This document shows positions 5,485 to 15,745 of a stretch of 41,190 nt of DNA, in pieces. The notes beneath the pieces were generated by a model, which saw nothing but the letters and a program-made list of their open reading frames with translations, was not told the DNA's origin and did no database searches. The position numbers were made by a program, and so were the translations under genes. Origin of the DNA: Nitrososphaerota archaeon. Lineage in GTDB: Archaea > Thermoproteota > Nitrososphaeria > Nitrososphaerales > Nitrosopumilaceae. The DNA is taken from positions 1 through 41,190 of the forward strand of contig DAHUYT010000017.1 of the NCBI GenBank assembly GCA_027315065.1. The letters run 5' to 3'. Each line of letters opens with the position of its first letter. Positions within the stretch are counted from its first letter, which is position 1.

Positions 5485-6522
5485 CTATGTCCATGGGTCT
5501 ATCCCCTTGGAGAGGCGCAATGCATCAATTAGACCCTCTGCGTACCCGATGCTAAGTATAGCAAGCTCTTCTTTTCCCTCGCTTTGAAATTTTTCAGCAT
5601 CATCAATATACAAACATGCATTTTCTATGACTGGTTGCACACTCTTGTCGTCCTTGAACATCTTGATAACCTCATCTAGTGCATTTCTTGCCTTTGGAAC
5701 ATACTTTGAAATCATTTGGTCTGATATTTTTCGGATCTTTGATGAATTATCAAATGGTTCATCAAGACACTTGGCAAACACCTTGAGTGCGTCTGTTTCT
5801 GTAAAATGCATCCTTCCTGGAATGATGATGGTATGCGGAGGTTTTCCAAAATTCATCTTGACTAGATCTGAAAGTTTTCCAGCTATTATGCTCTGGGTTC
5901 TTGAACCAATTCTTGAAGCTACTATTGTAAATGTTGATTCATCTATGATGTTTCTTTTCTGTTCATTTTCTGTAGATGAAAGACTTGATATTGCATCTTT
6001 TGGATCTAAAAAGAAATTCTCAATTCCACTGTATTCAAGTATCAAAATACTATGCATTCCTTTTACAAGGTTCTCGTAAATGGTATGGTATACGGTACTC
6101 CAAGACTGTTGTTCTCTCATTATCGTGACAGGGCGCCCAATCTTGTAGTACTGCAGCCCGCACTCGCCCACAAGAGATGGGATTGCAGATGCCGCATGTA
6201 TGGTCTTGGTCTTTATCTTTTCAATCTCTGCTCTAGTTCGTAGCTCGATATGGGTGGTTGCAATGTAAGGATCACCATACACAAGAAGAACAACCGTTCT
6301 CTTCTTTGCCTCGGAAAGAATCATCTTGCCATCCTCTACAATCCATCGTGGAGCCACCCTGAATTTTTTTTTGACAAGTTTTTTTATTTTGGACTGCTCA
6401 CTTTTTGGCATAGGACTTGTAAAGTTTTCAAAGAAAACCAGATCAGCTTTTTTTAAAATCTTTATCGTGTCATTGCTTATTCCATCAATTCCTGATATGC
6501 CAAGACCGATAAACCACAACAT
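5485..6522 (-). CDS. dphB: Diphthine synthase fused to a DUF357 domain
   Basis: DphB (Dph5) methyltransferase, which uses S-adenosylmethionine to methylate the precursor on the elongation factor 2 histidine during diphthamide synthesis. The N-terminal part (LWFIGLGISGIDGIS, later LVYGDPYIATTH and HAASAIPSLVGECGLQYYKIGR in pieces) is classic DphB of about 255 residues. Residues about 260-345 form an extra helical domain with ARNALDEV and CLYIDDAEKF…LAILSIGYAEGLIDALRL, matching archaeal DUF357. Diphthine synthases are normally about 260 residues. An AT-rich element near 6543-6553 lies 27 nt upstream of the ATG, so it may have its own promoter despite following lysK by 42 nt. Confidence 0.92.
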   Translation of the reverse strand: MLWFIGLGISGIDGISNDTIKILKKADLVFFENFTSPMPKSEQSKIKKLVKKKFRVAPRWIVEDGKMILSEAKKRTVVLLVYGDPYIATTHIELRTRAEIEKIKTKTIHAASAIPSLVGECGLQYYKIGRPVTIMREQQSWSTVYHTIYENLVKGMHSILILEYSGIENFFLDPKDAISSLSSTENEQKRNIIDESTFTIVASRIGSRTQSIIAGKLSDLVKMNFGKPPHTIIIPGRMHFTETDALKVFAKCLDEPFDNSSKIRKISDQMISKYVPKARNALDEVIKMFKDDKSVQPVIENACLYIDDAEKFQSEGKEELAILSIGYAEGLIDALRLSKGIDPWT

Positions 6523-6564: not shown

Positions 6565-7698
6565 TCATTTGTCAGAACTTTGGTTATCATGCAATCTTTT
6601 TAAGTGGTACAGCATTCGTTTGAAAACCTCTATACTTCTAAGATATTCATCGGTTGATACGTGTTCATCTATAGTATGTGATGCATGGGGGTCACCAGGA
6701 CCATATGTTACAACTGGGATATTAAGGGAGTTTCCTATAATGTTCATATCTCCTGTTCCTGTCTTTCTGATAAGTTGCGGCCTTGCCTTTTCAACATCTA
6801 GTATTCCCAATGTCAATGCCCTGACAAGAGGAGAACTATGCGGAGCCTCAAACGGCTCTGTCTCGTCTAGAATGGAATAAAATGCATTTACTCCTTGCTT
6901 TTTGGCAACCTCTTGAACTGTCGTTGCAATTTTTTCTCCAACCATTTTGCAGTTCATGTCTACTGGAATTCTGATGTCCATGATGGCATCGCATTCCACT
7001 GCAGTTACGTTGTGACTTGTACCTCCTTTTATCTCTGTAAGTGCTGCGGTCAACATCATGCTTTTTGGTTTGTCTTCTTGGTTTCCTTCTAGCGTTTCCT
7101 TTATCGCGGTAGTGAAAACATATGATTCCTCAATTGCATTTTTTGCAAGCCATGGAGCACTAGCATGAGCACTATCACCAACGTTTATCTTCAAGTTTAT
7201 GGCGATTCTTCCCTTGTATGCGATGGTGATATTTTTTATGCTGCTAGGTTCGCCAAAAATTGCGTAGTCAATGTCTAATTTCTGTTTGACCAAGCTTTTG
7301 ATTCCTGTTGCATTTCCTTCCTCATCTACTACTGCCGCAAAGACCACCATTCCGCTGTTATTTTGAACAGATGCAGCTGCAAGCAACATTGACATCAATG
7401 GTGCCTTTGCATCAGAAGCCCCTCTGCCATAGATATACCCATTCTCATTTCTTACCTTGATCTTTCCTGGAACCGTATCCATGTGACCGCAAAGAAGTAT
7501 CTTGGGAGAACCTGAGCCCTTTGTTGCAATGAGGTTTCCTACCTCATCCACGCGAATATTCTCAAAACCCAAGTCGTCACACTTATCTGCCAGAAATTCT
7601 GCAAGAGGTTTTTCAGAAAGTGATGGCGTGTAAAGCCTTAGAGCCTTCTCTAGCATCTTTATTGCATATCTTGGTGTAATGGTGATTGAAGAGTCCAA
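6565..7698 (-). CDS. lysK: [LysW]-lysine/ornithine hydrolase
   Basis: M20-family metallopeptidase that releases lysine (or ornithine) from the LysW carrier, the last step of the carrier route. Metal-binding motifs are clear: CGHMDTVPG with His72 and Asp74, RGASDAKAPL with Asp96, and VVDEEGNATG with the catalytic/metal Glu126-Glu127 pair. The C-terminal GPGDPHASHTIDEHVS motif supplies the final metal histidine. The 377-residue length and the position 3 nt after lysX support LysK over other M20 enzymes. One LysK probably serves both lysine and arginine pathways, since no second copy is seen here; that is inferred. Confidence 0.93.
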   Translation of the reverse strand: MDSSITITPRYAIKMLEKALRLYTPSLSEKPLAEFLADKCDDLGFENIRVDEVGNLIATKGSGSPKILLCGHMDTVPGKIKVRNENGYIYGRGASDAKAPLMSMLLAAASVQNNSGMVVFAAVVDEEGNATGIKSLVKQKLDIDYAIFGEPSSIKNITIAYKGRIAINLKINVGDSAHASAPWLAKNAIEESYVFTTAIKETLEGNQEDKPKSMMLTAALTEIKGGTSHNVTAVECDAIMDIRIPVDMNCKMVGEKIATTVQEVAKKQGVNAFYSILDETEPFEAPHSSPLVRALTLGILDVEKARPQLIRKTGTGDMNIIGNSLNIPVVTYGPGDPHASHTIDEHVSTDEYLRSIEVFKRMLYHLKRLHDNQSSDK

Positions 7699-7701
7699 TT
7701 C

Positions 7702-8550
7702 TTATTTTCTCGATTTCATTGCGTAGTCTATCATCAAGGCCGGTATATCTACGCCAGTAACTCTTACGGTATTTTTGTATTCCGTTGTGTTGTTGACCTC
7801 GTGAACCACTAGGCCTTTTTCCTTGCTTTCCATAAGATCTATGCCTACTATCTGTCCCTGCACTACATTTTTTGCCTTTATGCAGATGTCTTCTAATTCC
7901 TTTGTTATCCTCATTGACTCAGCCTTTCCGCCTAGAGCCATGTTTGTCTTCCACTGGCCATCCCCGGAGTAGCGATAGATTGCCGCAATCACTTGGTCAC
8001 CTATCATGATGGCCCTGATGTCACGGGGGGGCCGGTTGACAAATTCTTCCAAATAATACACCTGATAAATTGGATACATAGTTTCTCTTGTCTCCATTAT
8101 TCCTTCTGCAGAATCTCGATCATTTAGTAAAGCAATCATCCTGCCCCAACTTCCGACAGTGGGTTTTAGAACCATGGGATATCCTCTTTTTTCTAAAATC
8201 TCAAGTGCAGCTTCTTCGGAGAATGCTACTGCACTAAATGGCGTAGGAATTCCATTTTTTACCAAGAGCATGTGGGTGAAGAGCTTGTTTCCTGCGAATA
8301 TGCTGGTGTTCAGACTGTTGATTACGTTAACTCCTTTTCCCTCAAGTGCTGCAGTAGAGTGCAGACTACGATAATAACTGACACATCTCTGTATGGCAGT
8401 ACCATGTCTTTCTTCGGTCTTGTCTAAATCAATGGATAAACTCTTGCAATCTACCATCTTTGTATCGACGCCTTTTTTCTTTGCGGCATCAAACAGAGCC
8501 TTTTCTTCCCACCTGATGGTATCGTAGAGTATCGATAGACCTGAACTCAC
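7702..8550 (-). CDS. lysX: 2-aminoadipate-LysW ligase
   Basis: ATP-grasp ligase that joins the amino group of 2-aminoadipate to the C-terminal Glu side chain of LysW. The ATP-grasp core is seen in YPMVLKPTVGSWGRM and GIDLMESKEKGLVVHEVNN. The substrate-recognition loop reads NTTEYKN (254-260), close to the NTTEF-type loop of lysine-side ligases, whereas the paralogue at 13521 reads NTVEFKG. Length, 282 residues, fits the family. The GTG start at 8550 overlaps the lysW1 stop in a GTGA junction, so translation is coupled. Its immediate carrier is the LysW copy that ends in Gln, which is chemically surprising. Confidence 0.92.
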   Translation of the reverse strand: MSSGLSILYDTIRWEEKALFDAAKKKGVDTKMVDCKSLSIDLDKTEERHGTAIQRCVSYYRSLHSTAALEGKGVNVINSLNTSIFAGNKLFTHMLLVKNGIPTPFSAVAFSEEAALEILEKRGYPMVLKPTVGSWGRMIALLNDRDSAEGIMETRETMYPIYQVYYLEEFVNRPPRDIRAIMIGDQVIAAIYRYSGDGQWKTNMALGGKAESMRITKELEDICIKAKNVVQGQIVGIDLMESKEKGLVVHEVNNTTEYKNTVRVTGVDIPALMIDYAMKSRK

Positions 8551-8711
8551 TGGCCCCAGTCCTCACCAACAGTTTGTGCTGGTTTTAACTCAAAGCCTGA
8601 GGATCCTTTGGATAACTCAAAACTTGCACCACAGTCTGGACAAGTCACAATCTCTCCTTCCATGGAGTCTTTTGGAGGATTGATGTTGGCATCACATTCT
8701 AAACATTTCAT
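8547..8711 (-). CDS. lysW: LysW amino-group carrier protein (copy 1, C-terminal Gln)
   Basis: A 54-residue acidic carrier protein with a zinc-ribbon core: CLEC (Cys3, Cys6) and CPDC (Cys24, Cys27). The tail is VGEDWGQ. Known LysW proteins end in EDWGE, and the gamma-carboxyl of that last Glu carries the substrate. Here the last codon is CAG, so the residue is Gln; the second LysW in this window (14379-14546) has the usual Glu. The gene lies 1 nt after homocitrate synthase and overlaps lysX by 4 nt, so context is clearly the lysine operon. A single-base change from GAG would explain the Gln. The frame and length are otherwise perfect. Confidence 0.93.
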   Translation of the reverse strand: MKCLECDANINPPKDSMEGEIVTCPDCGASFELSKGSSGFELKPAQTVGEDWGQ

Positions 8712-8712
8712 A

Positions 8713-9903
8713 TTATTTACCTGTCTTTACCTTAACTTGGGTGTCATTAATTATCTTTCTTTCAAGCTTATCATCAAGAGGTATCTCAAGCAAATCCCCC
8801 ATTCTTAGATTCTTGAGGCCGGCTGCTACCTTCTTTGCATGTTCCTCGTCTTGGTCAAGACCTAGAATGGACATGAGATATGCTGCGCCATTCTTGCCTG
8901 CAAGCTCGCCAAATACAATTTTTCTCCTATTGCCTACCACTTTTGGTTCTATTGGCTCATAGGCTGCGGGGTTTCTAAGTATTGCAGCAAGGTGGGTTCC
9001 TGCCTTGTGCTTGTACGCAGTTGAACCAACAATTGGTTTGGAGTCATACGGGACAATTCCTGTGTACTGCTCAATCAGTCTTGATAGGTCCATCAGCATG
9101 TCAAGTCTAAAATTATTTGGAGACCTGTAAAGATATGTAAGTGCTACTGCAGTCTCTGCAAGAGCAGGTATGCCCGTTCTTTCACCTATGCCGTCGATAG
9201 TAGTGTGAATTTGATCAGCTCCTCCATCGCATCCTGCAAGAGCATTAGATAAAGCAAGTCCAATGTCATTATGACAGTGTACATCAAGTGGGGTCTTTAT
9301 TTTCTCACGAACTGACTTTACTAGGTTGTACATGCCGTTTGGTCTCATTATTCCAACCGTATCCGGTATGCTGATTCTGTCAACGCCGGCATCTGAAATC
9401 TCTTTGCAAATTTTGATGAGAAACTCTGGATCAGCCCTACTACCATCCTCAACCGTGAATCGTATCTTGAATCCATGTGATTTTGCATACTCTACTGTTT
9501 CCACAGCTCTTCGTAATGCTTCCTCTCTTGTTATTCTCAACTTGTCTTTCAGATGAATGTCAGATATACCAAGATAGGTTGCCATCCATGTAGCATTGCA
9601 TTCCAGCGCGATATCTACATCTTCCTTTAGAGCACGCACGTGAGCTACTATGTCTGCCTTTAGTCCCTGCTTGATTATTGTTTTGGTGGCTTCTTTATGA
9701 TCTGGCGAAACTACTGGTGAAATTTCAATCTGGTCAACGCCAAAATAGTCCAGCATCCACGCAATCTGAATTCGTTGCTTGTTGGAAAATGTAACACCTG
9801 GGTGCTGTTCTCCTTCCCTTAGAGTGCTATCTAAGATGCGAATCTTCTTTGGTTTTACCCCTACCTCGTTATATCTGTACGCGTAATAATTCGGATCGTC
9901 CAT
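8713..9903 (-). CDS. hcs: Homocitrate synthase
   Basis: Condenses 2-oxoglutarate and acetyl-CoA to homocitrate, the first committed step of the aminoadipate route to lysine. It has the DRE-TIM family start LDSTLREGEQHPGVTF with Asp25, Arg29 and Glu30, and the metal-binding HCHND motif (His209, His211). The IPALAETAVAL and STAYKHKAGTH stretches match homocitrate synthase better than isopropylmalate or citramalate synthase, and no leucine genes are nearby. At 396 residues it lacks the large regulatory domain of LeuA. It leads an operon with lysW1, lysX and lysK; a TATA element lies about 30 nt upstream of the ATG. Confidence 0.92.
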   Translation of the reverse strand: MDDPNYYAYRYNEVGVKPKKIRILDSTLREGEQHPGVTFSNKQRIQIAWMLDYFGVDQIEISPVVSPDHKEATKTIIKQGLKADIVAHVRALKEDVDIALECNATWMATYLGISDIHLKDKLRITREEALRRAVETVEYAKSHGFKIRFTVEDGSRADPEFLIKICKEISDAGVDRISIPDTVGIMRPNGMYNLVKSVREKIKTPLDVHCHNDIGLALSNALAGCDGGADQIHTTIDGIGERTGIPALAETAVALTYLYRSPNNFRLDMLMDLSRLIEQYTGIVPYDSKPIVGSTAYKHKAGTHLAAILRNPAAYEPIEPKVVGNRRKIVFGELAGKNGAAYLMSILGLDQDEEHAKKVAAGLKNLRMGDLLEIPLDDKLERKIINDTQVKVKTGK

Positions 9904-10019: not shown

Positions 10020-10439
10020 TTATGATACGGTTCTCAGTATTATGACAGTATTTGTGTCAAAAACACCTGGCACCTTGCGCAACGTATCTATGCATGCATT
10101 GATCTCTGTGATGTTTGGGGCCCTTATGATTGTAGCAATATCATACTGTCCAGTTATCTCATACACTGTATTGACTCCTTGTAGTTTTGAGAGTCGTGCT
10201 GAAACCTTTGAAGTGTCAGTTGAAGAATCAACCGATATCAGAATTATTGCGCTAGTTGAATTGCCGTCTCCAATCTCTATCGTGAATTTTTTTATTGCAC
10301 CGCCCTCGAGTAGGTTTTTCACTCTTCTCCTAACGGCAGATTCAGAGAGCCCAAGCTCCCCACCTATCTCTACAAAAGATTGTCTGGAATCCTTCTTTAA
10401 CATCTCAATTATTGTTTCATCTGTCTTGTCTCTAGACAT
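10020..10439 (-). CDS. lysM: Lrp/AsnC-family regulator (LysM-like)
   Basis: A 139-residue Lrp/AsnC transcription factor with an N-terminal winged helix (SFVEIGGELGLSESAVRRRVKNLLE, in two pieces around residues 20-45) and a C-terminal ligand-binding RAM domain (VYEITGQYDIATIIRAPN and the PGVFDTNTVIIL strand). Sulfolobus LysM, encoded in its lysine cluster, is a precedent for an Lrp protein controlling lysine genes in response to lysine. Here it overlaps lysJ by 8 nt and lies just upstream of the hcs promoter, so autogenous and cluster control is likely but inferred. Effector specificity cannot be read from sequence. Confidence 0.88.
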   Translation of the reverse strand: MSRDKTDETIIEMLKKDSRQSFVEIGGELGLSESAVRRRVKNLLEGGAIKKFTIEIGDGNSTSAIILISVDSSTDTSKVSARLSKLQGVNTVYEITGQYDIATIIRAPNITEINACIDTLRKVPGVFDTNTVIILRTVS

Positions 10440-11607
10440 TTCTTCTTTGTACCTCTTTTGTTAGTAAAAGGTCAAGAGTTTCTAAAGCTTTGTTTATGTC
10501 ATGCTCTGAAATAACAAGAGGAGGCAATAGTCTAAGTATGTTTTTTCCAGAATAGAGCAACAACAAATTATTTGCAATTCCATCAAGCAGGATGTCTTTT
10601 ACTTCAAACTTCATCTCCACGCCAATCATGAGCCCCTTTCCTCGTATTTCACGAATTATCTTGTGTTTTTCTTTTAGTCTATCAAGTCCTTCACGGAAGA
10701 TCTTGCCCATCTTGGCGGCATTCTCAATTAGCTTATCTTCTGTCAAGGCTTGAATTGCAGCAATTCCTGCAGCACATGAAAGCGGGTTGCCACCAAAGGT
10801 TGAAGATTGTTCGCCTTTTCCAATACATGCTAGAATGTCTGGTTTTACAAGAGTTGCACCCATTGGTACACCTCCTGCAATTCCCTTTGCAAGACACATG
10901 ATGTCAGGTGCTGTTTCCCAATGTTGGCCTGCCCACATCTTACCAGTCCTTCCAAGACCTGATTGGATCTCATCAAATATCAAAACAATCCCTTTTTCAT
11001 TGCATATCTTTCTTACTTCCTGCAAGAACCCATCTGGTGCCACATGAATCCCGCTCTCTCCCTGTATTGGCTCTAGTATGATGAGTGCAGTGTCGGGAGT
11101 TATTGCGGATTTTAATGCCTCAATGTCTCCAAATGGAGTAAATGACACGTTACTTAGTAGTGGCTCAAATGCCTTGCGGTATTTTGGATTAAATGTGACT
11201 GATAGTGAGCCGAACGATTTTCCATGGTAAGAACCATTCATTGCAATCATTCCCTTTTTACTTGTGAACTTGCGAGCAAATTTTATTGCAGCTTCTACTG
11301 CCTCTGTACCGCTATTATTGAGATATACATGACCAAGACCTGGAGGCGAAATCTTGATGAGTTTTTCAAGAAACTCTTCTCGGGTCTTGTTGTAAAGTGA
11401 ACTGTGAACAGTAATTATTTTATCAAGCTGGGTCTTTAGCGCTTTAACTACTCGGGGATTGCAGTGTCCAACAAGGGCGACGCCGTATCCTCCCATACAA
11501 TCTATGTATTCTTTTCCGTCCAGGTCCCAGACATGAGATCCAAGTCCTCGCTCTATTGTTACAGGAAACCTCTGGTAAATATTTCCCATGAATTGATCTT
11601 CTGTCAT
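10432..11607 (-). CDS. lysJ: [LysW]-aminoadipate semialdehyde / glutamate semialdehyde aminotransferase
   Basis: Class III PLP aminotransferase that converts LysW-bound semialdehyde to LysW-lysine, and probably LysW-glutamate semialdehyde to LysW-ornithine. The PLP lysine is Lys241 in LAKGIAGG, the conserved aspartate is Asp212 in IFDEIQSGLGRTG, and NNSGTEAVEAAIKFAR binds cofactor phosphate. Length (391) fits ArgD/LysJ. Start ATG at 11607 overlaps the end of lysZ by 4 nt. Gene context with lysY and lysZ supports LysJ over a free acetylornithine enzyme. It appears to be the only ArgD-type gene here, which suggests dual use. Confidence 0.93.
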   Translation of the reverse strand: MTEDQFMGNIYQRFPVTIERGLGSHVWDLDGKEYIDCMGGYGVALVGHCNPRVVKALKTQLDKIITVHSSLYNKTREEFLEKLIKISPPGLGHVYLNNSGTEAVEAAIKFARKFTSKKGMIAMNGSYHGKSFGSLSVTFNPKYRKAFEPLLSNVSFTPFGDIEALKSAITPDTALIILEPIQGESGIHVAPDGFLQEVRKICNEKGIVLIFDEIQSGLGRTGKMWAGQHWETAPDIMCLAKGIAGGVPMGATLVKPDILACIGKGEQSSTFGGNPLSCAAGIAAIQALTEDKLIENAAKMGKIFREGLDRLKEKHKIIREIRGKGLMIGVEMKFEVKDILLDGIANNLLLLYSGKNILRLLPPLVISEHDINKALETLDLLLTKEVQRRNV

Positions 11608-12404
11608 TTTGATATCACCGTACAGTTGTCATTAGCAATGGCTCTTGATATTGGGTTTTCTCTCTGACCGCTTGCAACTAGTGCCTGCTTTACGCCCATC
11701 TCTATTGCTTCTGTAGCGGCTAGTATCTTCTTTTCCATTCCAAATCCTATCTTCGGAAGCATCGCCTTGGCTTCATCAAGTGATAATCTTGCTACTAATT
11801 TGCCATCCATCAAGAGGCCATCTACATTGGTGAGGAATAGGATTTTATCTGACTGCATCTTGCCTGCAACATACGCTGCTGCCCTATCGCCATCAACGTT
11901 TAGAAAATCAAACTCCTCGCTTGTGGCAATAGGTGAGATTACCGGTACATATCCATGGTCTAGGATTATTTTGATAAGGCTAGAGTTGATCTCGCGTATC
12001 TTACCAGTATATCCGCCGTCAATTATCATCTTTCTTCCCTTTTCATTCATGACAATTAGTTTCTTTTTTCTCTCTGCTTGAATTATCTTGCCATCAATAC
12101 CTGAAAGGCCCACTGCATTGATTCCATTCTTCTGCAGCATTCCAACTATTATTTTATTTATCTTTCCTGACATCACCATAGTGAAAATTTCTGCAGTCTC
12201 CTTGTCAGTATACCTGCTTTTGATGCCTCCTGGTGATACTATGAATTTTTGTTCTTTGCCCAGAGCTTCTGAAATCCTTGTCACCTCCTTACCTCCTCCA
12301 TGGACAAGAATTACCTTCTCATGCTCTGAGACTTTTTTCAAGTCTGATATCGTGGAGGGATGTAGACCATCAACCACACTTCCTCCTATTTTTATTGTAA
12401 TCAT
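11604..12404 (-). CDS. lysZ: [LysW]-aminoadipate / [LysW]-glutamate kinase
   Basis: Amino-acid kinase of the N-acetylglutamate-kinase family, phosphorylating the LysW-bound side-chain carboxylate with ATP. Visible motifs are IKIGGSVVDG (residues 3-12), the glycine turn LVHGGGKEV, and NVDGDRAAAYVAGKM near the nucleotide site. The 266-residue length fits LysZ. It starts 4 nt after the lysY stop and overlaps lysJ by 4 nt, so the lysY-lysZ-lysJ genes form one tightly coupled unit. Carrier-bound rather than acetylated substrate is inferred from LysW genes close by and the lack of an acetyltransferase. Confidence 0.93.
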   Translation of the reverse strand: MITIKIGGSVVDGLHPSTISDLKKVSEHEKVILVHGGGKEVTRISEALGKEQKFIVSPGGIKSRYTDKETAEIFTMVMSGKINKIIVGMLQKNGINAVGLSGIDGKIIQAERKKKLIVMNEKGRKMIIDGGYTGKIREINSSLIKIILDHGYVPVISPIATSEEFDFLNVDGDRAAAYVAGKMQSDKILFLTNVDGLLMDGKLVARLSLDEAKAMLPKIGFGMEKKILAATEAIEMGVKQALVASGQRENPISRAIANDNCTVISK

Positions 12405-12408
12405 CTTT

Positions 12409-13461
12409 TCACACAGGAGTTAGTGGAGAATACGCCAAACCTTCCATCTCATTGAATCCTGACATCACGTTCAGGTTTTGTATGGCAGAACCCGCTGCAC
12501 CTTTCATTAGATTGTCTGATGCTGATAATACTACTAGTCTATTGTTGTCTTCATCGATGTCAAATCCTACATCGCAAAAGTTAGAGCCCACCACAAATTT
12601 CGGATCAGGAAACTTGTAGAATCCTTTCTTGTCGCGGATTAGCCTTATGAATCTCTCATTTTGATATTGCTCACGGTATATCTTCCATATGTCCATCTCT
12701 GTTACTTCTTTTGTGAGAAACGTGTGGTTTGTACATAAAATTCCTCTTACAATATCTACTGCATGTGGACTCATTGATACCTTGATCTTCTTTCCAGCTG
12801 CTTGGCTTAACTCCTGTTCGATCTCACCTGTGTGTCTATGTTTTGTTGGCTTGTACGGTCTAACAACACCAGATCTCATTGCATGATGAGTTCCTGCCTC
12901 AGAACCGGCTCCAGCCCCGGAAGAACCTATCTTGGAATCTACTATGATGTGCTCTGTATCTATGATCCCTTTTTTTACTAGTGGGTATAGTGCCAAAATT
13001 GATGTAACTGCCATGCATCCTGGGCATGACACAATCTGTGCTTTTTTGATCTCTTCTCTGTGAAGTTCTGGGACTCCAAATACTGACTTTGAAAGATAGT
13101 CTGGGTGTGTATGTTGCCACCCATACCATTTGTCATAGTCTGAAGCATTGTGTAATCTATAATCTGCACTCAAATCAATTACTTTCATTCCTCTATCGTA
13201 CAGCTCTTTTACAATATCTACTGCAGTACCATGTGGTACAGAAGTAAATACCAAGTCACACTTGTCTGACAACTTGTCATAATTTAATTCTGAAAAAGTT
13301 AGATCAGTGAATCCCTTGAGACTTGGTTGAACTCTGGAAATGTATTCTCCAACATGCTGTCTTGAAGTGACTGTTGTAATCTCAACTTTTGGATGGCTGA
13401 TAAGCAGCCTGAGAATCTCACCGCCGACATATCCTGATGCTCCTATTACTCCTATTCTCAT
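12409..13461 (-). CDS. lysY: [LysW]-aminoadipyl/glutamyl phosphate reductase
   Basis: NADPH-dependent reductase of the ArgC family, turning the acyl-phosphate on LysW into the semialdehyde. The Rossmann motif GVIGASGYVGGEILRLL opens the protein, and the catalytic cysteine is Cys149 in the SCPGC motif (family NPGC). DSKIGSSGAGAG and HRHTGEIEQEL contribute to the active site. Length, 350 residues, is typical. A TATA-like TTTAAATTA around 13489-13497 lies 27 nt or more upstream of the ATG, and AGGAG precedes the start, so a new transcript probably begins here even though argX lies only 59 nt upstream. Confidence 0.93.
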   Translation of the reverse strand: MRIGVIGASGYVGGEILRLLISHPKVEITTVTSRQHVGEYISRVQPSLKGFTDLTFSELNYDKLSDKCDLVFTSVPHGTAVDIVKELYDRGMKVIDLSADYRLHNASDYDKWYGWQHTHPDYLSKSVFGVPELHREEIKKAQIVSCPGCMAVTSILALYPLVKKGIIDTEHIIVDSKIGSSGAGAGSEAGTHHAMRSGVVRPYKPTKHRHTGEIEQELSQAAGKKIKVSMSPHAVDIVRGILCTNHTFLTKEVTEMDIWKIYREQYQNERFIRLIRDKKGFYKFPDPKFVVGSNFCDVGFDIDEDNNRLVVLSASDNLMKGAAGSAIQNLNVMSGFNEMEGLAYSPLTPV

Positions 13462-13520: not shown

Positions 13521-14378
13521 TTATCTGACAGCTAAATTAACTGCATACTCTACAATTTCTTTTGGAATGTTACGTTTAGCAACCTTTGCTAGCCCCTTAA
13601 ACTCTACAGTGTTGTTGACCTCGTGAACCACAAATCCTCTTTTTTCATCTTCCATTATGTCAATTCCAAGAATTCCTCCACCTACGGCTTTTGATGCTTT
13701 CATGCAAACATCTTCTAGTTCCTTGGTTATCTCACAAGGCACAGGTTCTGCACCCAACGCAATGTTTGTCTTAAATCCGCCAGTTGAAGTCCTGTACATT
13801 GCGGCTATCACCTGATCTCCAACGGAAATTACGCGTATATCTCTGGGTGGTCTCTTTACTGCTTCTTGCAGATAAAATATTCTGTCAAGTGGGCCGTCAG
13901 TTATCTCTCTTACCTCTAAAATGGCATCAGCTGTCTCTCTGTCCTTTAGTAGTATTACTCCTCTTCCCCAACTTCCTATGATTGGTTTTATGACTAGTGG
14001 ATATCCTTGCCTGTCAAGTGTTTCTACTGCAGACTCGGACGAAAACGAAAAGTAAGTCTTTGGGGTGGGAACATTATGTTTCTTTAACAGGAGGGATGTA
14101 AACATTTTATTTCCGCAATTATTTGCAACCTCTAACCTATTGAATACTGGAACATCAAGAAATTCTAGACATGCTGTAAAATGCAAGCCACGGAAATAAC
14201 TGACGCATCTTTCTAGTACTACGTCACCAAAATCAAAATCGCTTTTCTTGCTTTCTGTACTGATGTTTGTTGTCTTTGCATCTATCATCTTTGTATCATG
14301 TCCGAGCTCTATTGCTTTTTCCTCTAGCATTTTTTCCTCTAGTCTTACTCTATCGAACACGATACGGAATTTGGGCAT
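13521..14378 (-). CDS. argX: Glutamate-LysW ligase
   Basis: Second ATP-grasp LysX-type ligase, predicted to attach glutamate to LysW for arginine synthesis. It shares the fold with LysX (YPLVIKPIIGSWGRGV, GIDIMEDEKRGFVVHEVNN). The specificity loop differs: NTVEFKG (256-262) instead of NTTEYKN. Its neighbours are argG and its own LysW (stop directly abutting the argX ATG), which points to arginine. Bifunctional ligases exist in some archaea, so overlap in substrate use with LysX is possible. Length 285 residues, start ATG at 14378. Confidence 0.88.
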   Translation of the reverse strand: MPKFRIVFDRVRLEEKMLEEKAIELGHDTKMIDAKTTNISTESKKSDFDFGDVVLERCVSYFRGLHFTACLEFLDVPVFNRLEVANNCGNKMFTSLLLKKHNVPTPKTYFSFSSESAVETLDRQGYPLVIKPIIGSWGRGVILLKDRETADAILEVREITDGPLDRIFYLQEAVKRPPRDIRVISVGDQVIAAMYRTSTGGFKTNIALGAEPVPCEITKELEDVCMKASKAVGGGILGIDIMEDEKRGFVVHEVNNTVEFKGLAKVAKRNIPKEIVEYAVNLAVR

Positions 14379-14557: not shown

Positions 14558-15745
14558 TCACCTCTTTTTTAGTAATTTATTAGCTTCTGTTGATTGAAGT
14601 CCCCACAATTCTACAAATCCCTTTGCAAGGGTCTGGTCAAAAGTGGAACCTGAACCATACGTTGCCAAATCATGACTGTACAATGAATAATCTGATTTTC
14701 TCCCAACAACTCTAAGACTTCCTTTGAACATTTTTAGTTTTACAGTTCCGTTAACCCTTTTTTGGGACGCATTGATAAACATATCTAAATCTGTTTTTAG
14801 AGGATCTTGCCAGAGTCCAGAATATACCAGCCATGACCATTCTGAATCAACCATTGCTTTGAACTTTAATTCGTGTTTTGTGAGAACCATTTTTTCTAGA
14901 TCGGTATGCGCCTCAATTAGGCACAGAGCTGCAGGCGTCTCATACACCTCACGAGATTTTATTCCAACAACTCTATCTTCGATATGATCCACTATTCCGA
15001 TTCCTGATGCTCCCGCCTTTTTGTTAATGTACTCGATTAATTCAATTGGTTTTAGGCTTTTGCCGTCTACTGCCGCAGGTACTCCTTGGCTGAACTTGAT
15101 TTCCAAGTATTGTGGTCTATCTGGCAGGTTCTTGGTCTTGACCCAGATGAATGCATCGTCTGGGGGTTCTGTATATGCGTCTTCCAACTCTCCGCCCTCG
15201 ATTGCCCGTCCCCATATGTTTTGGTCTATGCTGAATCTTTTTGCTGTAGTATCGATCTGTATTCCATGTTTTTTTGCAAATTCTAATTCTACATCGCGAG
15301 TAAGATTGAGATCTCTGATGGGAGCTATGATCGGAAGAACAGAACCTGATCGCATAGTGACATCAAATCGCACTTGGTCGTTTCCTTTTCCAGTACAGCC
15401 ATGAGCCAACGCCTCGGCATTTTCTTTTTTGGAGATCTCTACAACTTTTTGCGCAATGAGTGGTCGTGCAAGAGCAGTTGCAAGACAATATTTCTTTTGG
15501 TATAATGCATTTGCTTTGATTGATGGTAAAATGAAATCAGTTACAAATTCATTTCTTGCATCAATATTATAATGTCTTATCACTCCAAGTTTTTTTGCCT
15601 TGGCTGTAATCTTTTTCAGATCGTCACCTTGTCCGACATCAACTGTAATGGTAATGACATCTAAGTTGTGTTTTTCTTGTAGGTATTTTACGACGACGGA
15701 TGTATCCAATCCGCCAGAGAAAGCTAAAACTGCCTTTCCTTTCAT
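14558..15745 (-). CDS. argG: Argininosuccinate synthase
   Basis: Joins citrulline and aspartate with ATP to give argininosuccinate. The PP-loop AFSGGLDTSV (residues 8-17) and the downstream HGCTGKGNDQVRFD and DRVVGIKSREVYETP motifs are diagnostic. Length, 395 residues, is normal. It heads an argG-lysW-argX unit, placing arginine synthesis next to the lysine genes that share the LysW system. The partner argH is not in the window. The ATG at 15745 is preceded by an A/T-rich element around 15775-15785 on the minus strand that could be the TATA box. Confidence 0.96.
   Translation of the reverse strand: MKGKAVLAFSGGLDTSVVVKYLQEKHNLDVITITVDVGQGDDLKKITAKAKKLGVIRHYNIDARNEFVTDFILPSIKANALYQKKYCLATALARPLIAQKVVEISKKENAEALAHGCTGKGNDQVRFDVTMRSGSVLPIIAPIRDLNLTRDVELEFAKKHGIQIDTTAKRFSIDQNIWGRAIEGGELEDAYTEPPDDAFIWVKTKNLPDRPQYLEIKFSQGVPAAVDGKSLKPIELIEYINKKAGASGIGIVDHIEDRVVGIKSREVYETPAALCLIEAHTDLEKMVLTKHELKFKAMVDSEWSWLVYSGLWQDPLKTDLDMFINASQKRVNGTVKLKMFKGSLRVVGRKSDYSLYSHDLATYGSGSTFDQTLAKGFVELWGLQSTEANKLLKKR

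Follow-up and report, generated by a model that had tools for sequence, protein, structure and literature searches.

In the known LysW/ArgW systems of Thermus, Sulfolobus, and Thermococcus (models NF041070 and TIGR01206), 2-aminoadipate or glutamate is held on the γ-carboxyl of the C-terminal Glu of a small carrier protein. This Glu defines the carrier mechanism, and papers and annotation treat it as invariant. The GSWGR motif recognizes the EDWGE tail of the carrier, and in the haloarchaeon Natrinema the E54A exchange abolishes arginine synthesis (PMC10433800). The solved LysW chains 3vpb, 3wwl, and 5k2m end in Glu, as do five plasmid-borne bacterial LysW proteins from Deinococcus, Pseudalkalibacillus, and Streptomyces. 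Pup, a protein with no sequence relation to LysW, is encoded with a C-terminal Gln in some species and a C-terminal Glu in others; PafA ligates it through the γ-carboxyl, and Dop both deamidates and depupylates, two reactions that have been called chemically equivalent (PMC8599861, PMC8223512).

A LysW gene with a terminal Gln codon

The window analyzed here is the whole 41,190-nucleotide stretch of contig DAHUYT010000017.1 from a Nitrososphaerota archaeon. Its minus strand carries every gene from 15745 to 5485, in the order argG, argW-E, argX, lysY, lysZ, lysJ, an Lrp-type gene, a homocitrate synthase-like gene, lysW-Q, lysX, lysK, and a TP-methylase/DUF357 gene. Sequence matches identified argininosuccinate synthase (argG, 14558 to 15745), the argX-type ATP-grasp ligase (13521 to 14378, also placed by the ligase tree), the lysY/argC reductase (12409 to 13461), the lysJ/argD aminotransferase (10432 to 11607), the Lrp/AsnC-type regulator (10020 to 10439), and a homocitrate synthase-like enzyme immediately upstream of lysW (8713 to 9903). 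The lysZ/argB kinase (11604 to 12404) was assigned with NF010662. The cluster has two carriers and two ligases versus a single set of LysZ, LysY, LysJ, and LysK; the reductase, kinase, and aminotransferase are common to both carriers. The window genome holds two carriers, LysW and ArgW, and no more, and one LysK. The TP-methylase and DUF357 gene that follows lysK (5485 to 6522, sequence match) is also found 3' of lysK in Nitrosopumilaceae, Nitrososphaera-like, and Nitrosocosmicus-like genomes.

The lysW-Q gene (8711 to 8547) translates to MKCLECDANINPPKDSMEGEIVTCPDCGASFELSKGSSGFELKPAQTVGEDWGQ followed by a stop, a 54-residue amino-group carrier protein with an EDWGQ tail. It scores 83.0 bits against NF041070 (carrier_LysW_Arch, cutoff 75), is above the cutoff of PF21344, and has the two Cys pairs of the zinc ribbon, CLEC and CPDC. 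The second carrier, argW-E (14546 to 14379, 55 residues), ends in VGEDWGE before its stop and is likewise above the cutoff of the NCBIfam archaeal LysW/ArgW carrier model. The original prediction of one Gln end and one Glu end thus agrees with both translations. It had placed the deciding base at 8550, whereas Gln versus Glu is settled at 8552: the last LysW codon, CAG for Gln54, is the complement of 8552 to 8550, and 8552 reads G on the plus strand. Position 8550 serves both as the third base of this codon and as the opening base of the lysX start codon GTG, with GTGA as the overlap. LysW-Q shares with the known carriers its length, its Cys pairs, the EDWG tail, a place in an operon with LysX, and the common LysZ, LysY, LysJ, and LysK, but its last encoded residue differs, being Gln both here and in every close relative except one. 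The adjacent LysX (7702 to 8550; TIGR02144, 336.7 bits) has an intact GSWGR motif and a conserved active site; it also matches TIGR00768, the RimK-family α-L-glutamate ligase model.

Conservation of the Gln codon in relatives

We compared the 80 nearest loci, drawn from named genomes in a set that represents each GTDB species once (Nitrosotalea, Nitrosopumilus, Nitrosopelagicus, Nitrosarchaeum, and others), and all 80 lysW genes encode a terminal Gln. Judged by these named relatives, the window belongs within Candidatus Nitrosotalea or beside it. Among 103 distinct lysX-linked tails, from Nitrosopumilaceae and, for four of them, the f2 group, the last codon is CAG in every case, while the third base of the preceding Gly codon varies (A in 44, C in 40, G in 14, and T in 5), as does that of the Asp codon (T in 63 and C in 40). 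Because CAG is kept throughout with free synonymous change alongside, the Gln codon of the lysX-linked LysW is, by this measure, under purifying selection. Such conservation across the 80 loci and 103 tails rules out sequencing error, private mutation, and decay; it also bears out the earlier view that the gene is intact and simple decay unlikely. Overlap with lysX does not force CAG, as GTGA fixes only the last G and not the C, and GAGTGA, which overlaps equally, is present in one relative.

In the 63 genomes of the window's family, Nitrosopumilaceae, a Gln-ended carrier is present in 62 and a Glu-ended one in 61; the lysX-linked copy ends in Gln in 62 of 63, with Glu on the other copy. The exceptions are G296 (both carriers Glu), G118 (both Gln), and G419 (Gln only, on short contigs). 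The search of relatives for GAG that the original prediction called for thus returned CAG with the single exception of G296, and this GAG makes Gln a strong rule of the family, though one with an exception. In that Nitrosopumilus-like genome (locus L189, carriers at 5936 to 6112 and 11728 to 11913), the lysX-linked copy is back to GAG.

One explanation that leaves the codon without a function is that CAG is misread as Glu often enough for a small Glu-ended fraction to do the carrying. Archaea are not known to have GlnRS and form Gln-tRNA indirectly, by amidating Glu-tRNA(Gln), and this route would offer an opening for misreading. Gln would then be a pure cost and its conservation would be left unexplained, which makes this explanation barely credible.

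Distribution of Gln-ended carriers in Thermoproteota

A pattern search of 398 Thermoproteota genomes found EDWGQ followed by a stop in 87, a few of these matches being due to chance, and EDWGE followed by a stop in 246; the reversed control pattern gave 3 matches. Chance EDWGQ matches were recognized in G068, where the frame is closed, and once in G248, where TGG stands in place of a stop. EDWGQ was found in at least seven family-level groups. Much of the archaea encodes Gln at this position, and this applies to almost every marine and soil ammonia oxidizer sampled.

The loci of other groups were read after a profile search of their genomes. The f2 group has Gln beside lysX and Glu beside argX, G260 and G415 have two Gln-ended carriers, and G315 has one of each. 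Elsewhere the sole carrier ends in Gln: in G248, G357, and G383 (L179, L180, and L181), where argW is lost and the cluster holds both ArgX and LysX; in G053, with a lysY-Z-W-X-J-K cluster; and in G045, G061, G157, and further f12 genomes. Sister species of one genus can differ, as G172 (Gln) and G130 (Glu) do with their single carriers, and as G163 and G187 (Gln) do from G100 and G139 (Glu). In G144 (L199 and L200) the assignment is reversed: the carrier linked to ArgG ends in Gln, and its second carrier ends in Glu; this genome, together with the two-Gln genomes G260 and G415, rules out that Gln is bound to the lysine pathway.

Five of these genomes (G053, G172, G248, G357, and G383) are closed and have a single LysW-family gene, which is Gln-ended. 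Since Gln-only genomes have complete carrier operons, a Gln-ended LysW must, on gene content, be able to work as a carrier, and the same genomes lend indirect support to covalent carriage of 2-aminoadipate or glutamate by LysW-Q. No match to dihydrodipicolinate synthase (DHDPS, DapA) was found in the window genome, G172, G248, G415, or G045, while the enzyme is present in 14 of 14 control genomes. Without DapA the usual diaminopimelate (DAP) route to lysine is absent from the window genome, and the LysW route is therefore expected to be needed. Several aconitase-family matches were found in the window genome, and one DHDPS-family gene was found in G053 (C1:536166-537014).

Another explanation denies LysW-Q a carrier function in the window organism: ArgW-E would take both cargos, and LysW-Q would have another role or be on its way to being lost. 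In its favor, the window genome encodes an intact copy that ends in Glu, and a single carrier serves both pathways in Sulfolobus, as cited in PMC10433800. Against this stand the purifying selection on Gln, the complete operons of Gln-only genomes, which indicate that Gln-ended proteins carry, and the Gln-only lineages in which one such carrier supplies both LysX and ArgX. We regard this explanation as very unlikely. The original prediction had listed decay, no charging, use of copy 2 for both pathways, deamidation, and other chemistry. The Gln that it had read is real, and deamidation and other charging are live candidates, but a carrier that cannot be charged, with copy 2 serving both pathways, fails as a general answer, since closed genomes have a Gln-ended sole carrier, some with both LysX and ArgX.

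Ligases of Gln- and Glu-ended carriers

On a tree of 78 ligases, the partner changed between Glu and Gln at least 9 times when only adjacent pairs were counted and 12 times with shared carriers included; it is a quick tree with long branches, so the counts are approximate, and the sister pairs within genera are independent of it. The last residue is therefore interchanged between species with the same ligase (9 to 12 tree changes). Because there are at least nine changes of state, some between sister species of one genus, the last step, as judged from these comparisons, cannot depend strongly on Gln or Glu. We also looked for LysX residues that follow the partner. None of 932 column-residue tests gave a column that tracks Gln versus Glu or a compensating residue; the best column reached a net 4 of 9 independent pairs, and with about 9 usable pairs a subtle effect could escape. 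The ATP-grasp, catalytic, and GSWGR residues are identical in the two sets. As no LysX residue tracks the partner, the partner changes along the tree, and GSWGR is the same in both sets, the simplest reading is that the ligase would always meet the same residue, Gln being first turned to Glu.

The main rival keeps Gln54 as it is and puts the cargo on its α-carboxyl, in an ordinary peptide bond (-Trp-Gly-Gln-2-aminoadipate), with LysK then acting as a carboxypeptidase. Gln54 offers only its α-carboxyl in free form, and the strict retention of Gln in Nitrosopumilaceae suggests a role of its own for this residue. The chemistry is within the range of the family: LysX matches TIGR00768, and RimK, CofF, and MptN, of the same ATP-grasp family as LysX, make α-peptide bonds, other RimK-family members forming α-glutamyl bonds, whereas the known LysX makes a γ bond. 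However, in five active sites the cargo would sit some two carbons away from its usual place, although one LysZ, LysY, LysJ, and LysK set handles Gln- and Glu-ended carriers side by side in one cell; in addition, no LysX residue tracks the terminal residue, and Gln and Glu interchange between sister species. We consider this rival unlikely, though not to be neglected. It would imply that Gln-ended carriers hold precursors of lysine, and in some lineages of arginine, on an ordinary peptide bond at the C terminus, so that a second type of linkage would be used alongside the γ linkage of the same cell, which is no likelier.

A candidate deamidation step

The reading we favor, giving it about an even chance, is that LysW-Q is a pro-form whose Gln54 is deamidated to Glu and then charged on the γ-carboxyl in the known way, with LysK the likely deamidase. 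LysW-Q would be made with Gln54, which would be hydrolyzed to Glu after translation. LysX would then attach 2-aminoadipate by its amino group to the γ-carboxyl, as in known systems, the cargo would be processed by LysZ, LysY, and LysJ, and lysine would be released by LysK, leaving a reusable Glu-ended carrier. A single deamidation per LysW molecule would suffice, as later cycles regenerate Glu.

We propose LysK as the most likely enzyme for the hydrolysis of Gln54 because the γ-carboxamide of this residue corresponds to the bond cut in LysW-γ-lysine, with ammonia in the place of lysine. The gene (6565 to 7698), the second after lysW in the window, encodes an M20-family [LysW]-lysine/ornithine hydrolase that matches Thermus thermophilus LysK (5xoy) with an E value of 2.4e-45. 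LysK was above the cutoff in 26 of 26 genomes searched, including those with Gln-ended carriers, and a comparison of 35 LysK sequences showed the metal ligands and the catalytic Glu to be conserved. No dedicated deamidase gene common to the Gln-type operons was found when their loci were compared. Both the deamidation step itself and the part of LysK in it are what we infer from these data.

The Pup system offers the closest parallel. Like LysW, Pup is a small carrier with Gln or Glu as its last residue depending on the species and with ligation through the γ-carboxyl, and Dop cuts both the γ-isopeptide and the γ-amide. By analogy, LysK takes the place of Dop, cutting the γ-amide between Glu54 and lysine or ornithine. 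Unlike LysW, Pup is a tag that directs proteins to degradation; its enzymes PafA and Dop are glutamine synthetase-like, whereas LysX is an ATP-grasp enzyme and LysK an M20 enzyme, and deamidation of LysW is a proposal. The M20 membership of LysK, outside the Dop/glutamine synthetase family, speaks against it as the deamidase, and cleavage of a primary amide by LysK is putative. Deamidation as a whole faces a further objection: if Gln and Glu were fully equivalent after maturation, Gln should drift to Glu, but Nitrosopumilaceae keep the two apart strictly, and this strict assignment of Gln to one copy and Glu to the other is unaccounted for by deamidation.

A direct amide swap would also explain the interchange of Gln and Glu. 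Here LysX, or LysK in reverse, would convert Gln54 and 2-aminoadipate to LysW-γ-2-aminoadipate and ammonia with no free Glu, comparable to the side reaction in which glutamine synthetase and PafA act as transferases. Pup work discusses ATP activation of the C-terminal side-chain amide, but to our knowledge no amide-swap activity has been described for ATP-grasp ligases of the LysX family. As the carrier would be Glu-ended after the first LysK cycle, the swap, which we consider quite improbable in itself, reduces to the deamidation reading. What Gln at this position implies is either a hidden maturation step, in which the Pup/Dop logic would have arisen a second time independently, or a different linkage chemistry; LysK becomes a candidate two-function enzyme.

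Previous records of the EDWGQ tail

Taken by its sequence, the EDWGQ LysW is a real, conserved, and repeatedly evolved variant of the known carrier family, unrecorded as far as could be searched. A metabolic model of Nitrosopumilus maritimus, in the part available to us, names one LysW beside argX, with the lysine branch gap-filled and the terminal residue uncommented. We found no open-access paper that deals with LysX in connection with both deamidation and a glutamine at the C terminus, and 5.4 million open-access papers contained no mention of EDWGQ; an earlier mention in subscription papers may exist. The EDWGE motif occurs in the open-access literature in papers on haloarchaeal LysW and in unrelated papers, mostly on soybean peptides.
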